A stretch of DNA of 64,000 nucleotides from Bacteroidota bacterium (GTDB lineage: Bacteria; Bacteroidota; Bacteroidia; Palsa-965), in assembly GCA_020402865.1 (NCBI GenBank), contig JADBYT010000026.1, positions 67,001-131,000 of the forward strand. The letters run 5' to 3'. This document shows positions 40,143-44,338 of the stretch, piece after piece. The notes below the pieces were generated by a model that was given only the letters and a program-made list of their open reading frames with translations, ran no database searches and was not told the origin of the DNA. The position numbers and the translations under genes were made by a program. The first letter of the stretch is position 1, and each line of letters starts with the position of its first letter.

Positions 40143-41170
40143 ATATCGACAGTCTGCTTGAACGGAATCTTTTGCCTGATGCGCTTATCCGCGCGGGCAT
40201 TCGCAAACTGCTGCGCCAGCGTTTGCGCGATGAAAAGCGTCCTACGCCCGATGCGCAGTATGCCCATTTCATGCAGCAGCTCGAAGAGTTTTCGCGCAGC
40301 CCGGTGGCCGTAGAAACCAAAGCCGCCAATGAGCAGCACTACGAAGTGCCCACTGCTTTTTATCAGTACTGCCTCGGCCCGCATCTCAAGTACAGCAGCG
40401 GTTTCTGGAAACCCGGCACCACCACGCTGGCGCAGGCCGAAGAAGACATGCTGGCACTCACCTGCCAGCGCGCACAGCTCGAAAACGGCCAGCATATTCT
40501 CGAACTTGGCTGCGGCTGGGGTTCGCTTACACTTTACATGGCGGCCAAATTTCCGCAAAGTAAAATCACTGCTGTCTCCAACTCGCGCACACAAAAGCAA
40601 TACATTGACGCCACCGCTGCGCAACGCGGTCTCACCAACATCACCATCATCACTGCCGACATGAACGTGTTTGCCACAGAATCCGCGCAGTTCGACCGCG
40701 TGGTTTCGGTAGAAATGTTTGAGCACATGCGCAACCACGGCCTCCTCCTCGAACGGATCTCCGGCTGGCTCAAACCCGGCGGCAAACTCTTCGTACACAT
40801 CTTCACCCATAAAGCATACACCTATCTCTTCGAGGCGAAAGACGAAACCGATTGGATGTCGCGCTACTTCTTCACCGGAGGCATGATGCCGTCTGACCAT
40901 TACCTGCTTTACTGGAACAAACACCTGCGCGTAACCTCACACTGGCGCGTAAGCGGCGAGCATTATGGTAAAACAGCCGAAGCATGGTTAAAGAATATGG
41001 ATGCGCGTAAGGCTGATATTTTGCCGTTGTTTGCAGAGACTTATGGGAAAGAGAACGTGACGAAATGGTGGGTGTACTGGCGCGTGTTTTATATGGCCTG
41101 TGCCGAGTTGTGGAATTTTGAGAAAGGGGAGGAATGGTTTGTGAGTCATTATTTGTTTGAGAAAAATTAA
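40139..41170 (+). CDS. Cyclopropane-fatty-acid-synthase-like SAM methyltransferase
   Basis: 343 residues from ATG 40139 (MNIDSLLERNLLPD). The class I methyltransferase core has ILELGCGWGSLTLYMA (SAM site), VSVEMFEHMRNHG and LFVHIFTH. The family ends with CAELWNFEKGEEWFVSHYLFEK. Compared with E. coli Cfa, the bicarbonate-ligand Cys139 and Tyr317 positions appear here as Ser87 (KYSSGFW) and Leu284 (AWLKNMD), while the Glu and His ligands remain. This pattern fits the coclaurine-N-methyltransferase-like branch, so true cyclopropanation is doubtful. Its stop codon overlaps the convergent gene's stop. Confidence 0.87.
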   Translation: MNIDSLLERNLLPDALIRAGIRKLLRQRLRDEKRPTPDAQYAHFMQQLEEFSRSPVAVETKAANEQHYEVPTAFYQYCLGPHLKYSSGFWKPGTTTLAQAEEDMLALTCQRAQLENGQHILELGCGWGSLTLYMAAKFPQSKITAVSNSRTQKQYIDATAAQRGLTNITIITADMNVFATESAQFDRVVSVEMFEHMRNHGLLLERISGWLKPGGKLFVHIFTHKAYTYLFEAKDETDWMSRYFFTGGMMPSDHYLLYWNKHLRVTSHWRVSGEHYGKTAEAWLKNMDARKADILPLFAETYGKENVTKWWVYWRVFYMACAELWNFEKGEEWFVSHYLFEKN

Positions 41171-42303
41171 TTAGATGTACTACTCTTTGTAGCATTATTT
41201 GTTTTGTTCTCAATTAGCCAATTAGCTTTGTGAAATTCTTTGAGCATCCGTCTTTGAAGCGGCATCCCTTTTTTCTTTAGACTCTCTATTTGGTCAACAA
41301 AAACAGGTGTGAGTTCTATTTCCGGATCTTCATCAGTTTCTCCCCGTGTAATATAAAGGTCAGTCGTTTCATAACGATTTTTCGTTTTGCTTAATTGATA
41401 AATTGTACGATAATGCGCCTTGTTAATGATGATATACTCAGCAGAATCTCCTGAGAATTTCAAAGTATAGCTATAGGTGATATTAAGTTTATTGTCGTTC
41501 GAAAAAGAAACTTCGCTGTCTATTTCGGTAGATGCTGAAAACTCATTATCTGACATTGCATATATCCAATGAGAGTTACCGACAGTAATTTGTTCCGACA
41601 TCTGAATGGGTATTCCACTTATTAATTTATAATAGGTGTGATAAATTGCCGTGTAACCTGTTCCCCAGCCAAAGCTGGGTACGGCCCAGTAATCTGATTT
41701 TTCAATTCGTTCAATTGGTGCCGGCCAAAAATTTCTGTTGATGGCTGAAACTGTACCTGCAAGTGTGTAACGTTCTCCGTCGTTGTGATAAATCATATAG
41801 AAATGTTCCCAATGCCTGTCACGAATTATTTCAATAACCAGCTCTTTTTTCCGGTCGTTATTCAGGTGTATTTCCTGAAAACAGATTGGTGCAACTGTAT
41901 ATTCCGAGTCAATCATCAGCCATTGATATTGATCGTTAAGAAATGTTTCATTGCAAACCAAAAGATCGATCTCTTCGCGCTTTACAGGCGCAGGATAAAT
42001 AGGCTTTTCGTTTGCCGTATCACAAAACGTTTCAATAAATGCCTGTACAGAAGCATTGCGGATATATTGTGCGGCGGAATCAATTCGGCTGTTGCTGTCC
42101 ACCAGAAACGTATCCCCGCCCAGCAGGTAGCCGGAAGTTCTTTGCACAGAATCTCTAAGCAATGTCACATAAAGTGTATCCTTCCACTTCGGATTGACAA
42201 ACCGGATTTTCTCAGGTGTGGAGGATTGCGATTGTGTTGTTGCCTGTTCTTCGCCACAGCGTACAAGCAAAAAGGGGAGAAGTGTTATGAGTAGCCAGCG
42301 CAT
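41167..42303 (-). CDS. Hypothetical lipoprotein, 378 aa
   Basis: Short signal peptide with Cys near residue 16 (LLPFLLVRCGEE; the Arg at -1 is unusual for a lipobox), then a Gln/Ser/Thr-rich linker and a mostly beta-type domain with many Tyr and Trp (FGWGTGYTAIYHTYYKL, ITYSYTLKFSGDSAEYI). No family is recognised. It is convergent with the methyltransferase gene, sharing the TTAA that serves as both stop codons. It lies alone, with the hairpin array behind its start. Confidence 0.75.
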   Translation of the reverse strand: MRWLLITLLPFLLVRCGEEQATTQSQSSTPEKIRFVNPKWKDTLYVTLLRDSVQRTSGYLLGGDTFLVDSNSRIDSAAQYIRNASVQAFIETFCDTANEKPIYPAPVKREEIDLLVCNETFLNDQYQWLMIDSEYTVAPICFQEIHLNNDRKKELVIEIIRDRHWEHFYMIYHNDGERYTLAGTVSAINRNFWPAPIERIEKSDYWAVPSFGWGTGYTAIYHTYYKLISGIPIQMSEQITVGNSHWIYAMSDNEFSASTEIDSEVSFSNDNKLNITYSYTLKFSGDSAEYIIINKAHYRTIYQLSKTKNRYETTDLYITRGETDEDPEIELTPVFVDQIESLKKKGMPLQRRMLKEFHKANWLIENKTNNATKSSTSN

Positions 42304-42379
42304 GAAACGAAGCTACTTTGGGAAATGTTCGTTTCAGTGGTCGCTTGTAGAACTGTGCGGGTGTTTTGAATAAGTGTAG

Positions 42380-42557
42380 TTTCTTTGGAAAAGTTGCAAA
42401 CTTTTCCAAAGAAAGCATCCGGTTTATCTCGTCTTCGACGAGGTAAACCGGATGCAGCTACACAGCTACAGCGAAGCTGTAGCTGCGGAAAGTTTACTTC
42501 CGGCTTTGCCGGAAATAAACTTTCCGCAAAAGTTGTTCAAGTCTGTGACTTGAACAA
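42380..42557. repeat. Array of five consecutive long hairpins with three-base loops
   Basis: Five palindromes in tandem. H1: 16-bp stem 42380-42395/42399-42414, loop GCA. H2: 19-bp stem 42415-42433/42437-42455 with one G-T pair, loop TTC. H3: 10-bp stem 42463-42472/42476-42485, loop GAA. H4: 12+7-bp stem 42485-42504/42508-42527 with one C-A mismatch, loop TTT. H5: 11-bp stem 42533-42543/42547-42557, loop TGT. Gaps are 0 to 7 bases. Stem sequences differ from one another, so this is not a direct repeat or a CRISPR array. Function unknown; it may be REP-like or a mobile palindrome cluster. Confidence 0.9.
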
Positions 42558-42561
42558 AACA

Positions 42562-42589
42562 AAAACGGCTTCCCGAAGAAAGCCGTTTT
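42562..42589 (-). terminator. Terminator of the TPR/PD40 gene
   Basis: AAAACGGCTT (42562-42571) pairs with AAGCCGTTTT (42580-42589), loop of 8 bases; on the minus strand TTTTTGTTTTG follows. It lies 21 bases past the stop at 42610. Confidence 0.8.
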
Positions 42590-42609
42590 CAATTATTCGC
42601 ATAAGCACT

Positions 42610-44235
42610 TTATTCCTTATAAATAATAAAATGTTTTACCATTTCAAAAGTACCGCCTTCTTTATCGGCGGGAAGGCTGATGGTTTCTTTAACCACTTTA
42701 TAGCCCGGCATTTCAATGCGGATTTCATAGGTGCGGTCGCCTTCAAGGGTTACATTATAGTTGCCTTGCGGTGTGGAAGCCGACGAAGTAACGAGGTTGC
42801 CGTTTACATCATATACTTTCACTTCTACAGCCATGGAAAGACCATCGCCGTTGTAAATGGAGCCAAGCAGATTACTCATGATCGGGCCTTCTTTTTTCTT
42901 GGGCAGCAGTTCAGTCATGTCCACCATCCAGATGTCGCGTTCACCGAGCCCGCCGGGGCGGTCGCTGTCCACGTAAGCAGAACGGCCGTCGGCAGAGATG
43001 AGGAACATACGTTCGTTGTGCGGCGTGTTAATGGGGTAGCCTACGTTTACGGGTGTGGTCCACTGGCCGTTTTCAAAACGTGTCATAAAAATATCATAAC
43101 CGCCCATGGTGCTGTGGCCGTTGGAGCAGAAGTAAAGCGTTTTGCCATCGGGCGCGGGATAAATGCCGCCTTCGTCATATTCCGTATTTACCTGCGGACC
43201 AAGGTTCACCGGGTCGCCCCATTCGCTTTTGCTTTTGCGTTTGCACATCCAGATATCACTGCGGCCCATTCCGCGCTGTCCTTTCCAGGGCAGATCCTGT
43301 CCGCGTTCACTCATGAAATACATGGTGTTTCCATCGGGCGAAAGCACGGCGCCGTCTTCAAAGTAGCTGGTGTTGATGCCGGTGCCCATGTTTTTCGGGT
43401 TGCTCCATTTGCCGTTGTTGTTGCGCTTGGAGAAATAAATATCGCCGCCGCGTGCCTGATCGGCATTGTTTACATAAATGAAAAGCTGCTTACCATCGGG
43501 CGAAATGCTGCACGCGGCATCGTGTCCGTCGGTATTAATTGCGCCGGGAGCCAGATCGGCAGCGCCCCATTTCATAGCGGCTGAGTCCCATGTGCTCAGG
43601 TAAATATCTTCGAAATATTTATTGTCGCCTTCTTTGTCTTTTTCAGAGGTTTTGCCACCGGGCCGGCGCGAATTGAAAATCATGGTTTTGCCATCAGCCG
43701 TAATCGACGGACGTTTATCATCGTATGCGCTGTTGATGATGGTGCCGGGATTGGTAACGGTTACTTTTTTTGGCGAGGCCATGAGTGTTTTTGCCGTCTG
43801 GCACTGATTGAGGTAATAATCAATTTCCTTGCCTTTGGCGGGCGATGTATTTCGCGATTTTGCGGCAGTAAGTTCGGTAATGGCTTCGTCGAGTTTGCCC
43901 TGCATCTGGTAAATACGGCCGAGCATGAGACGGATATCGGGGTGACCGTCGGCGTTTATTGATTTTGCTTTTTCAAATTGTGTGAGCGCCTGATCGGTTT
44001 CGCCCATTGCGAAATAGCACTCGCCGATGTGGAAAATTACGGAAGCGTCGTTCGGGTTGTTGGCGAGCACTTCTTTATAAAGGTTGAGTGCTTTTACATA
44101 ATCGCCGCCATTAAAGGATTGCGAGGCGGCAAAGAGTTTTACTTCGTCGGCGCTCTTGGTTACCACAGATTGTGCGCCTGATGAAAAGGGCAGCAAAAGA
44201 AACAGGGCGAGGGTAAGATGTAACAGGTGCTTCAT
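42610..44235 (-). CDS. TPR and PD40 (WD40-like) repeat secreted protein
   Basis: 541 residues from ATG 44235 (MKHLLHLTLALFLLLPFSSGAQ). TPR-like helices at ~35-160 (YVKALNLYKEVLANNPNDASVIFHIGECYFAMGE), then a PD40 beta-propeller at ~175-440 with repeated DGKxMxF motifs and SDIWM/YDIFMTR strand ends, and a C-terminal carboxypeptidase-regulatory-like domain (VEVKVYDVNGNLVTSSA). The layout resembles PorE, the peptidoglycan-linked T9SS component, but the C-terminal OmpA domain is missing, so it may not bind the cell wall. A TATATTTG box (44270-44263, this strand) could be its -7 element. Confidence 0.87.
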   Translation of the reverse strand: MKHLLHLTLALFLLLPFSSGAQSVVTKSADEVKLFAASQSFNGGDYVKALNLYKEVLANNPNDASVIFHIGECYFAMGETDQALTQFEKAKSINADGHPDIRLMLGRIYQMQGKLDEAITELTAAKSRNTSPAKGKEIDYYLNQCQTAKTLMASPKKVTVTNPGTIINSAYDDKRPSITADGKTMIFNSRRPGGKTSEKDKEGDNKYFEDIYLSTWDSAAMKWGAADLAPGAINTDGHDAACSISPDGKQLFIYVNNADQARGGDIYFSKRNNNGKWSNPKNMGTGINTSYFEDGAVLSPDGNTMYFMSERGQDLPWKGQRGMGRSDIWMCKRKSKSEWGDPVNLGPQVNTEYDEGGIYPAPDGKTLYFCSNGHSTMGGYDIFMTRFENGQWTTPVNVGYPINTPHNERMFLISADGRSAYVDSDRPGGLGERDIWMVDMTELLPKKKEGPIMSNLLGSIYNGDGLSMAVEVKVYDVNGNLVTSSASTPQGNYNVTLEGDRTYEIRIEMPGYKVVKETISLPADKEGGTFEMVKHFIIYKE

Positions 44236-44338
44236 AGATTCGGATAAGTGCGAGGATGTAAACAAATATAGCAGTATGTCGCTAAGTGGAAAAGCAAACG
44301 CCGGTTTTTTATCTGGCTGTTGCCGTAACTCCTCTTTT

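Follow-up and report, generated by a model that had tools for sequence, protein, structure and literature searches.

A five-hairpin array in a Bacteroidota genome as a probable REPIN-like mobile palindrome of a RAYT transposase

Five adjoining triloop hairpins lie between two host genes

The window analysed here is a 64-kb stretch of a Bacteroidota genome (contig JADBYT010000026.1, positions 67,001 to 131,000). Within it, a minus-strand gene for a TPR and PD40 repeat protein (42610..44265) and a minus-strand ORF without a Pfam match (41167..42303) are the host genes on the two sides of an array of 178 bases (42380-42557), in which five hairpins adjoin one another, all with 3-base loops, as the preliminary description had reported. 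The intrinsic terminator of the TPR/PD40 gene (42560..42591, minus strand) is host sequence outside the element. The hairpins, none of which is assigned to a strand, are as follows. Hairpin A (42380..42414) has a 16 bp stem, the triloop GCA and the centre AAAAGTT-GCA-AACTTTT, and is a terminal REP-like hairpin. Hairpin B (42415..42455) has 19 bp, including one G-T pair, around the triloop TTC, and is what we term a type-2 hairpin (GCATCCGGTTT...AAACCGGATGC). Hairpin C (42463..42485; 10 bp, triloop GAA) is a linker hairpin, and D (42484..42528; 21 bp with one mismatch, triloop TTT) is again of type 2 (TGCGGAAAGTTT...AAACTTTCCGCA). Hairpin A' (42533..42557; 11 bp, triloop TGT) is the inverted counterpart of A.

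Successive hairpins are spaced by 0, 7, 0 and 4 bases, and the first two bases of D overlap C. The gaps of 0-7 bases first described for the array therefore stand, and its stems are slightly longer than the 10-19 bp given there, at 10-21 bp. The accompanying statement that the stems are not copies of one unit did not hold: A and A', at the two ends, are inverted versions of one hairpin with a TGC/TGT-type triloop, and B and D have the common frame GC-N4/5-GTTT...AAAC-N4/5-GC. The array thus looks like two units, A-B and D-A', each consisting of a type-2 hairpin and a REP hairpin, which face each other in inverted orientation across C. The tetranucleotide GTAG, the classic REP foot, stands directly before A (42376-42379) and shortly before D (42480-42483); other copies of the array do not keep it.

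In DNA folding each of the five hairpins forms. Folded as RNA, positions 42370-42600 reach -128 kcal/mol (z -18), whereas shuffled sequences average -53.3 and 0 of 200 were as good. Comparable hairpins in the rest of the 64-kb window occur only singly and scattered, and sampled stretches of the same genome totalling 400 kb hold nine triloop hairpins of array-like strength, a background rate from which 0.004 would be expected in 178 bp. The five-hairpin array is far beyond chance.

The array is lineage-specific at the TPR/PD40 locus

A terminator hairpin had been noted after the array. It is present, read 42591-42560, but it lies on the minus strand and ends the minus-strand TPR/PD40 gene, so that transcription meets the terminator before the array rather than after it. 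The TPR/PD40 gene has an orthologue in all six congeneric genomes examined (61-68% identity), and the hairpin array is absent downstream of this orthologue in all five readable congeneric loci (L092-L095 and L097). In two of these (L092 and L095) a terminator-like hairpin directly follows the orthologue, and in L094 a similar short stem is followed by T's. The match in the sixth congener (L096) reaches the contig end and is therefore uninformative on the presence of the array. Since the gene beyond TPR/PD40 differs in the congeners, the exact borders of the insertion are unreadable. A search of 11 other genomes of the family with the 186-bp element as DNA gave no match at E 1e-4, and blastn of the array against phage records returned nothing. 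On sequence comparison, the array is lineage-specific at the TPR/PD40 locus.

These observations bear on the idea, raised in the preliminary description, that the array is a 3' mRNA-stabilising element, or a multi-terminator element, of the TPR/PD40 gene. Its position directly 3' of the gene and its great stability as RNA would suit such a role, and REPs elsewhere have been reported to affect mRNA stability (PMC6006769). We nevertheless regard this explanation as very unlikely, because transcription reaches the terminator ahead of the array and five orthologous TPR/PD40 genes are without the array; in addition, copies of the array elsewhere in the genome adjoin unrelated genes.

Ordered copies of the array recur across the genome

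A blastn search of the array against its own genome identified partial copies on other contigs. The longest copy (C8:50948-51116, locus L023) contains all five hairpins in the same order, A-B-C-D-A', and is 73% identical to the window array over 169 bp (E 4e-18). The order B-C-D-A' recurs in L024 and in the reverse complement of L031, L022 reads D, a decayed A' and then A-B-C, and D-A' is common to L021, L022, L023 and L024; the position of C is taken by different hairpins in L023, L024 and L022. Multiple copies with the same hairpin order, which the preliminary description had named as support, are thus found in full in L023 and in part in L024, L031 and L022.

Pattern searches extended this picture. 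The arms of D (CGGAAAGTTT...AAACTTTCCG) occur exactly at 10 genomic places, among which the inner stem of D varies, and the 16-mer CAAGTCTSSAGACTTG, a variant A' centre, occurs at 20; the reversed-pattern controls gave 0 in both cases, and both counts are minima since the patterns were exact. B has five copies, three from the pattern search together with those of the window and L022. A D-type motif lies at most 75 bases upstream of 19 of the 20 A'-core sites and downstream of 1 of 20, against a background of 2.1% per 75-base stretch, which identifies the common unit as a type-2 hairpin followed by an A' hairpin. The same D-A' order precedes 19 of 20 CAAGTCTCCAGACTTG sites. Overall, partial copies in which a B/D-type hairpin is followed by A' are present at at least 20 other sites, mostly intergenic, and the copy number of the element is about 20-30. 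Most copies of the array lie between genes, with two doubtful ORFs spanning L022 and L026.

Elsewhere in the genome the modules of the array appear singly, as inverted pairs and as tandem half-hairpins. Tandem duplications of 38-40 bp of one D half are found in L021, L028, L029, L030 and L086; in four of them the repeats stand beside one complete D (L021:1506-1750, L086:920-1095, L028:1485-1582 and L029:1420-1580), constituting half-hairpin amplification. In L025 (G000:C12), a single ORF (1649-2539) lies between two near-identical A-D arrays (L025:1360-1500 and 2660-2840) that share about 50 bp of flank, which looks like a gene trapped by two copies. Sister units, duplicated about 150 bp apart, immediately follow a probable tRNA gene (L080:7905-8305, G000:C15); in these, type-2 hairpins GC(A/G)AACAGTTT...AAACTGTTTGC are followed by GGCGGTTTGCAACCGCC, and the stems are unlike those of the window element.

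An intact RAYT gene adjoins the longest copy

A Pfam Y1_Tnp search of the genome returned three genes. One of these, P0001 (L023:839-1387, minus strand, 182 aa), is an intact RAYT; the L023 array lies upstream of it, and about 60 bp separate hairpin A from the start of the gene. In L023/L036 the centre of hairpin A occupies the stretch 61-79 bp before the RAYT start. A search for a REP-associated, IS200-like transposase, which the preliminary description had suggested, was therefore positive, and its reading of the array as a mobile palindrome cluster gains support from this RAYT linkage together with the repeated, ordered copies. No transposase ORF lies inside or beside the window array itself. 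The RAYT-linked array lies on a different contig and has just 73% identity to the window array, so that the cognacy of enzyme and array rests on their shared architecture.

P0001 scores 97.6 bits against the NCBIfam model REP_Tyr_transpos (REP-associated tyrosine transposase; cut-off 80), and a profile of 23 homologues has E. coli TnpAREP 4ER8 as its best solved structure. Its motifs NHLH, WQ and YIHQNP agree with those of TnpAREP subclass 2.6 (NH[LIV]H, W-Q, YIH[QN]NP), a Bacteroidetes group equivalent to RAYT group 5 (PMC6006769), and all 23 homologues retain both HUH histidines, the W and the Tyr. The reported values for this subclass, roughly 179 aa in length with HUH and Tyr some 82 aa apart (PMC6006769), are likewise matched by the 182 aa of P0001 and its 82 residues from H61 to Y143. 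Members of the subclass also carry a 21-aa insertion between helix C and strand 4 and a C-terminal SS motif (PMC6006769); the SS pair S163 and S164 is invariant among P0001 homologues. From its motifs, length and HUH-Tyr distance, P0001 appears to fit TnpAREP subclass 2.6/RAYT group 5. It is the only RAYT of its type in the genome, and a tblastn search of plasmids found distant RAYTs only.

The two other genes have palindromes of their own. The second RAYT-like gene (L034:1306-1812, G000:C19:223758-224048) is followed by GGGCGCGA..TCGCGCCC palindromes, which occur at 13 sites genome-wide, and then, at the contig end, by a tandem GCGCCCTAGATAAATCCCC repeat; gene and palindromes are apparently another RAYT/REP pair in the same genome. 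The third (L035:1426-1902) has the palindrome TACGAGGTCTATAAGACCTCGTA at 2138-2160, about 240 bp upstream (G000:C2:460531-461190), with four sites genome-wide.

Triloop hairpins accompany RAYT genes across Bacteroidota

We surveyed 80 named Bacteroidota RAYT loci and found triloop hairpins to be 16 times denser close to the RAYT (21.9 per 10 kb inside 200 bp) than farther away (1.36 per 10 kb); 69 lay within 200 bp of the gene, compared with 4.3 expected from their density at greater distance in the same loci. Hairpins with other loop lengths are less strongly enriched near the RAYT (triloop versus others, Fisher p 3e-6). The loops upstream of the gene are mostly TGC, TGT and TCC, that is T[GC][CT], and those downstream are mostly the reverse complements ACA, GCA and GGA (Fisher p 0.0002). 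At the cut-off used, an upstream triloop hairpin was present at only 39 of the 80 loci.

The A/A' centre (GTTTGCAAC / GTTGCAAAC) recurs beside RAYT genes of several genera, Aquimarina and Saccharicrinis among them (loci L135, L145 and L181). Resemblance to the RAYT-flanking hairpins of other genera is restricted to A/A', and B, C and D were seen only in the source genome. In one congener (G006), the genome's own RAYT is flanked by the triloop hairpin CCGCAGGATTTGCAATCCTGCGG, which has 23 exact genomic copies, several of them as inverted pairs. Between genomes, the stems of RAYT-flanking hairpins differ and the loop and centre persist.

The association across many assemblies is also relevant to the explanation that the array is an assembly artefact. 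Palindromes can be mis-assembled, but the same architecture, in diverged sequence, is found on several independent contigs, and many other Bacteroidota assemblies have this type of hairpin next to their RAYT genes; an artefact is thus extremely improbable.

Stems differ between copies yet remain complementary

Across 11 D hairpins, in an alignment that was hand-trimmed to remove bulges and is hence biased towards structure, 97% of cells pair, both partners have changed in five pairs, and covariation reaches a score of 0.291 versus 0.108 in shuffles. In the five copies of B, 95.7% of cells pair and four pairs are changed on both sides. The stems therefore differ between copies yet remain complementary, with compensatory changes in D and B.

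Compensatory changes, some of which give G-U pairs, together with the very low folding energy, might be taken to indicate a gene for a structured small RNA that folds into a rod of several hairpins, and a discrete RNA had been among the initial suggestions. Neither Rfam, where no family reached the gathering score and only sub-threshold chance matches appeared, nor promoter scans of the array, which yielded no match of the sigma-70-like or the Bacteroidota type, lent this any support. Modules that occur elsewhere singly, in inverted pairs and as tandem half-hairpins are also ill-suited to one RNA gene, and we consider an RNA gene a highly doubtful explanation.

The A' hairpins vary in another way. 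At their 20 sites the centre is fixed and the outer arms are copy-specific, 1 to 12 bp long and perfectly complementary (e.g. L027:1413-1452, L185 and L197). Summed over the 20 sites, which include a few recent duplicates of one another, outer-arm length is 83, whereas the largest sum in 200,000 random draws was 27. This pattern could be explained by selection for the hairpin, palindrome correction in replication, targeting of existing hairpins or fold-back duplication. More specifically, we put forward as a tentative possibility, itself rather unlikely, either that insertion or repair, through fold-back synthesis at the foot of the hairpin, copies the host flank as an inverted duplication, or that pre-existing host hairpins are chosen by the enzyme as targets.

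The array as a RAYT-associated element and its relation to known systems

An array that is repeated around the genome and found beside a matching RAYT gene points to a known but poorly described class of mobile palindromes. We conclude that the array is very probably a non-autonomous, REPIN-like mobile palindrome of a Bacteroidota RAYT (TnpAREP subclass 2.6, RAYT group 5). The initial view that no named family matches was wrong, as subclass 2.6 RAYTs have been described with 'atypical secondary structures' (PMC6006769). Like the REP-like sequences of that subclass, which accompany proteins with the same motifs, length and HUH-Tyr distance, the hairpins flanking the P0001 gene lack GTAG and are copied elsewhere in the genome. 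The structures of subclass 2.6 are, however, described as 'atypical', with weaker secondary structure and no consensus in the main text (PMC6006769), whereas the array has long, near-perfect stems, a prevalence of triloops and a five-hairpin composite layout. Our literature search found no paper describing such Bacteroidota hairpins beyond PMC6006769 and PMC3733652, and none of those found gave a detailed account of the subclass 2.6 hairpins.

The element has the general properties of a REP, being a short extragenic palindrome that is repeated in the genome and stands next to a RAYT. A REPIN consists of two REPs in inverted orientation whose movement is attributed to a RAYT (PMC3116915). The array resembles it in its inverted A/A' pair around a spacer, its intergenic and dispersed copies and its cluster beside a RAYT (PMC3116915); in both the window and L023, A (GCA loop) and A' (TGC/TGT loop) are at the ends. 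Unlike in a REPIN, the spacer itself contains strong hairpins (B, C and D), most other copies are a single D-A', and there is no GTAG tag. With BIMEs and GTAG-tagged REPs (PMC3733652), the array has in common clustered, alternately oriented extragenic palindromes with short loops, and it differs from them in lacking a conserved GTAG/GTGG foot and in having two hairpin types, longer stems and a lower copy number. REP families often exceed 100 copies per genome, and the array element falls short of this by its minimum counts of A'-core and exact D sites; families of 20-100 units or fewer have been reported, however, and a high copy number is usual but not necessary (PMC3733652). The array is best called a new form of the RAYT-REP/REPIN kind, namely a composite triloop element with two hairpin types and no conserved GTAG.

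Other known systems were also compared. The ends of IS200/IS605 elements (IS608, ISDra2) have subterminal hairpins, similar to the array, that are read by a Y1 HUH transposase; unlike these elements, the window copy is without tnpA, its end hairpins are inverted rather than on the same strand, and no guide or cleavage sequences were identified. CGTC-tagged REPs have a CGTC foot, an 8-9 bp stem, a 4-5 base loop and no transposase association (PMC3733652), and were dropped as a candidate given the 3-base loops, longer stems and RAYT association of the array. An integron attC array was likewise dropped, as the hairpins adjoin a RAYT and no cassette ORFs lie between them.

In the mechanism we consider most likely, exposure of the region as a single strand, such as on the lagging-strand template, would let A and A' fold as triloop hairpins, and the RAYT encoded elsewhere in the genome would bind them as single-stranded DNA. 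Its HUH/tyrosine site would cut and rejoin single strands, as described for TnpAREP and IS200/IS605 enzymes (PMC6006769), and the array might thereby be moved or copied as a passenger to other intergenic sites. By analogy with these enzymes, we infer that RAYT binding, cleavage and movement in trans may apply to the array and that it may be active at present. Inspection by eye found no conserved guide tetranucleotide around A, A' and D, and no target-site rule emerged.

A serious alternative, albeit one we consider unlikely, is that the array is a domesticated, RAYT-bound hairpin set that no longer moves and serves a host function in replication, recombination or gene regulation. The single RAYT of the P0001 type, the low copy number and the long, well-kept stems would all be compatible with host adaptation. 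Fast-turning selfish DNA is a better fit than domestication, however, to the absence of the element from 11 other family genomes at the sensitivity used (E 1e-4) and to the different stem family of the congener.

Implications for Bacteroidota RAYTs

Fold-back copying or hairpin targeting, if true, would be a transposition outcome undescribed for REP/REPIN or IS200/IS605 elements in the literature we searched, and the copy-specific, self-complementary arms raise the concrete question of how such hairpins are made or corrected. More generally, subclass 2.6 RAYTs are widespread in Bacteroidota, and their DNA partners were previously only hand-found "atypical secondary structures". For these partners our analysis provides a testable description: a hairpin, in most cases some 50-140 bp ahead of the gene, that combines a T[GC][CT] triloop with a GTTTGCAAC-like centre, and its reverse complement downstream. 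Such a triloop description eases binding and cleavage assays, the genome-wide annotation of unexplained Bacteroidota palindromes and studies of RAYT/REP co-evolution.
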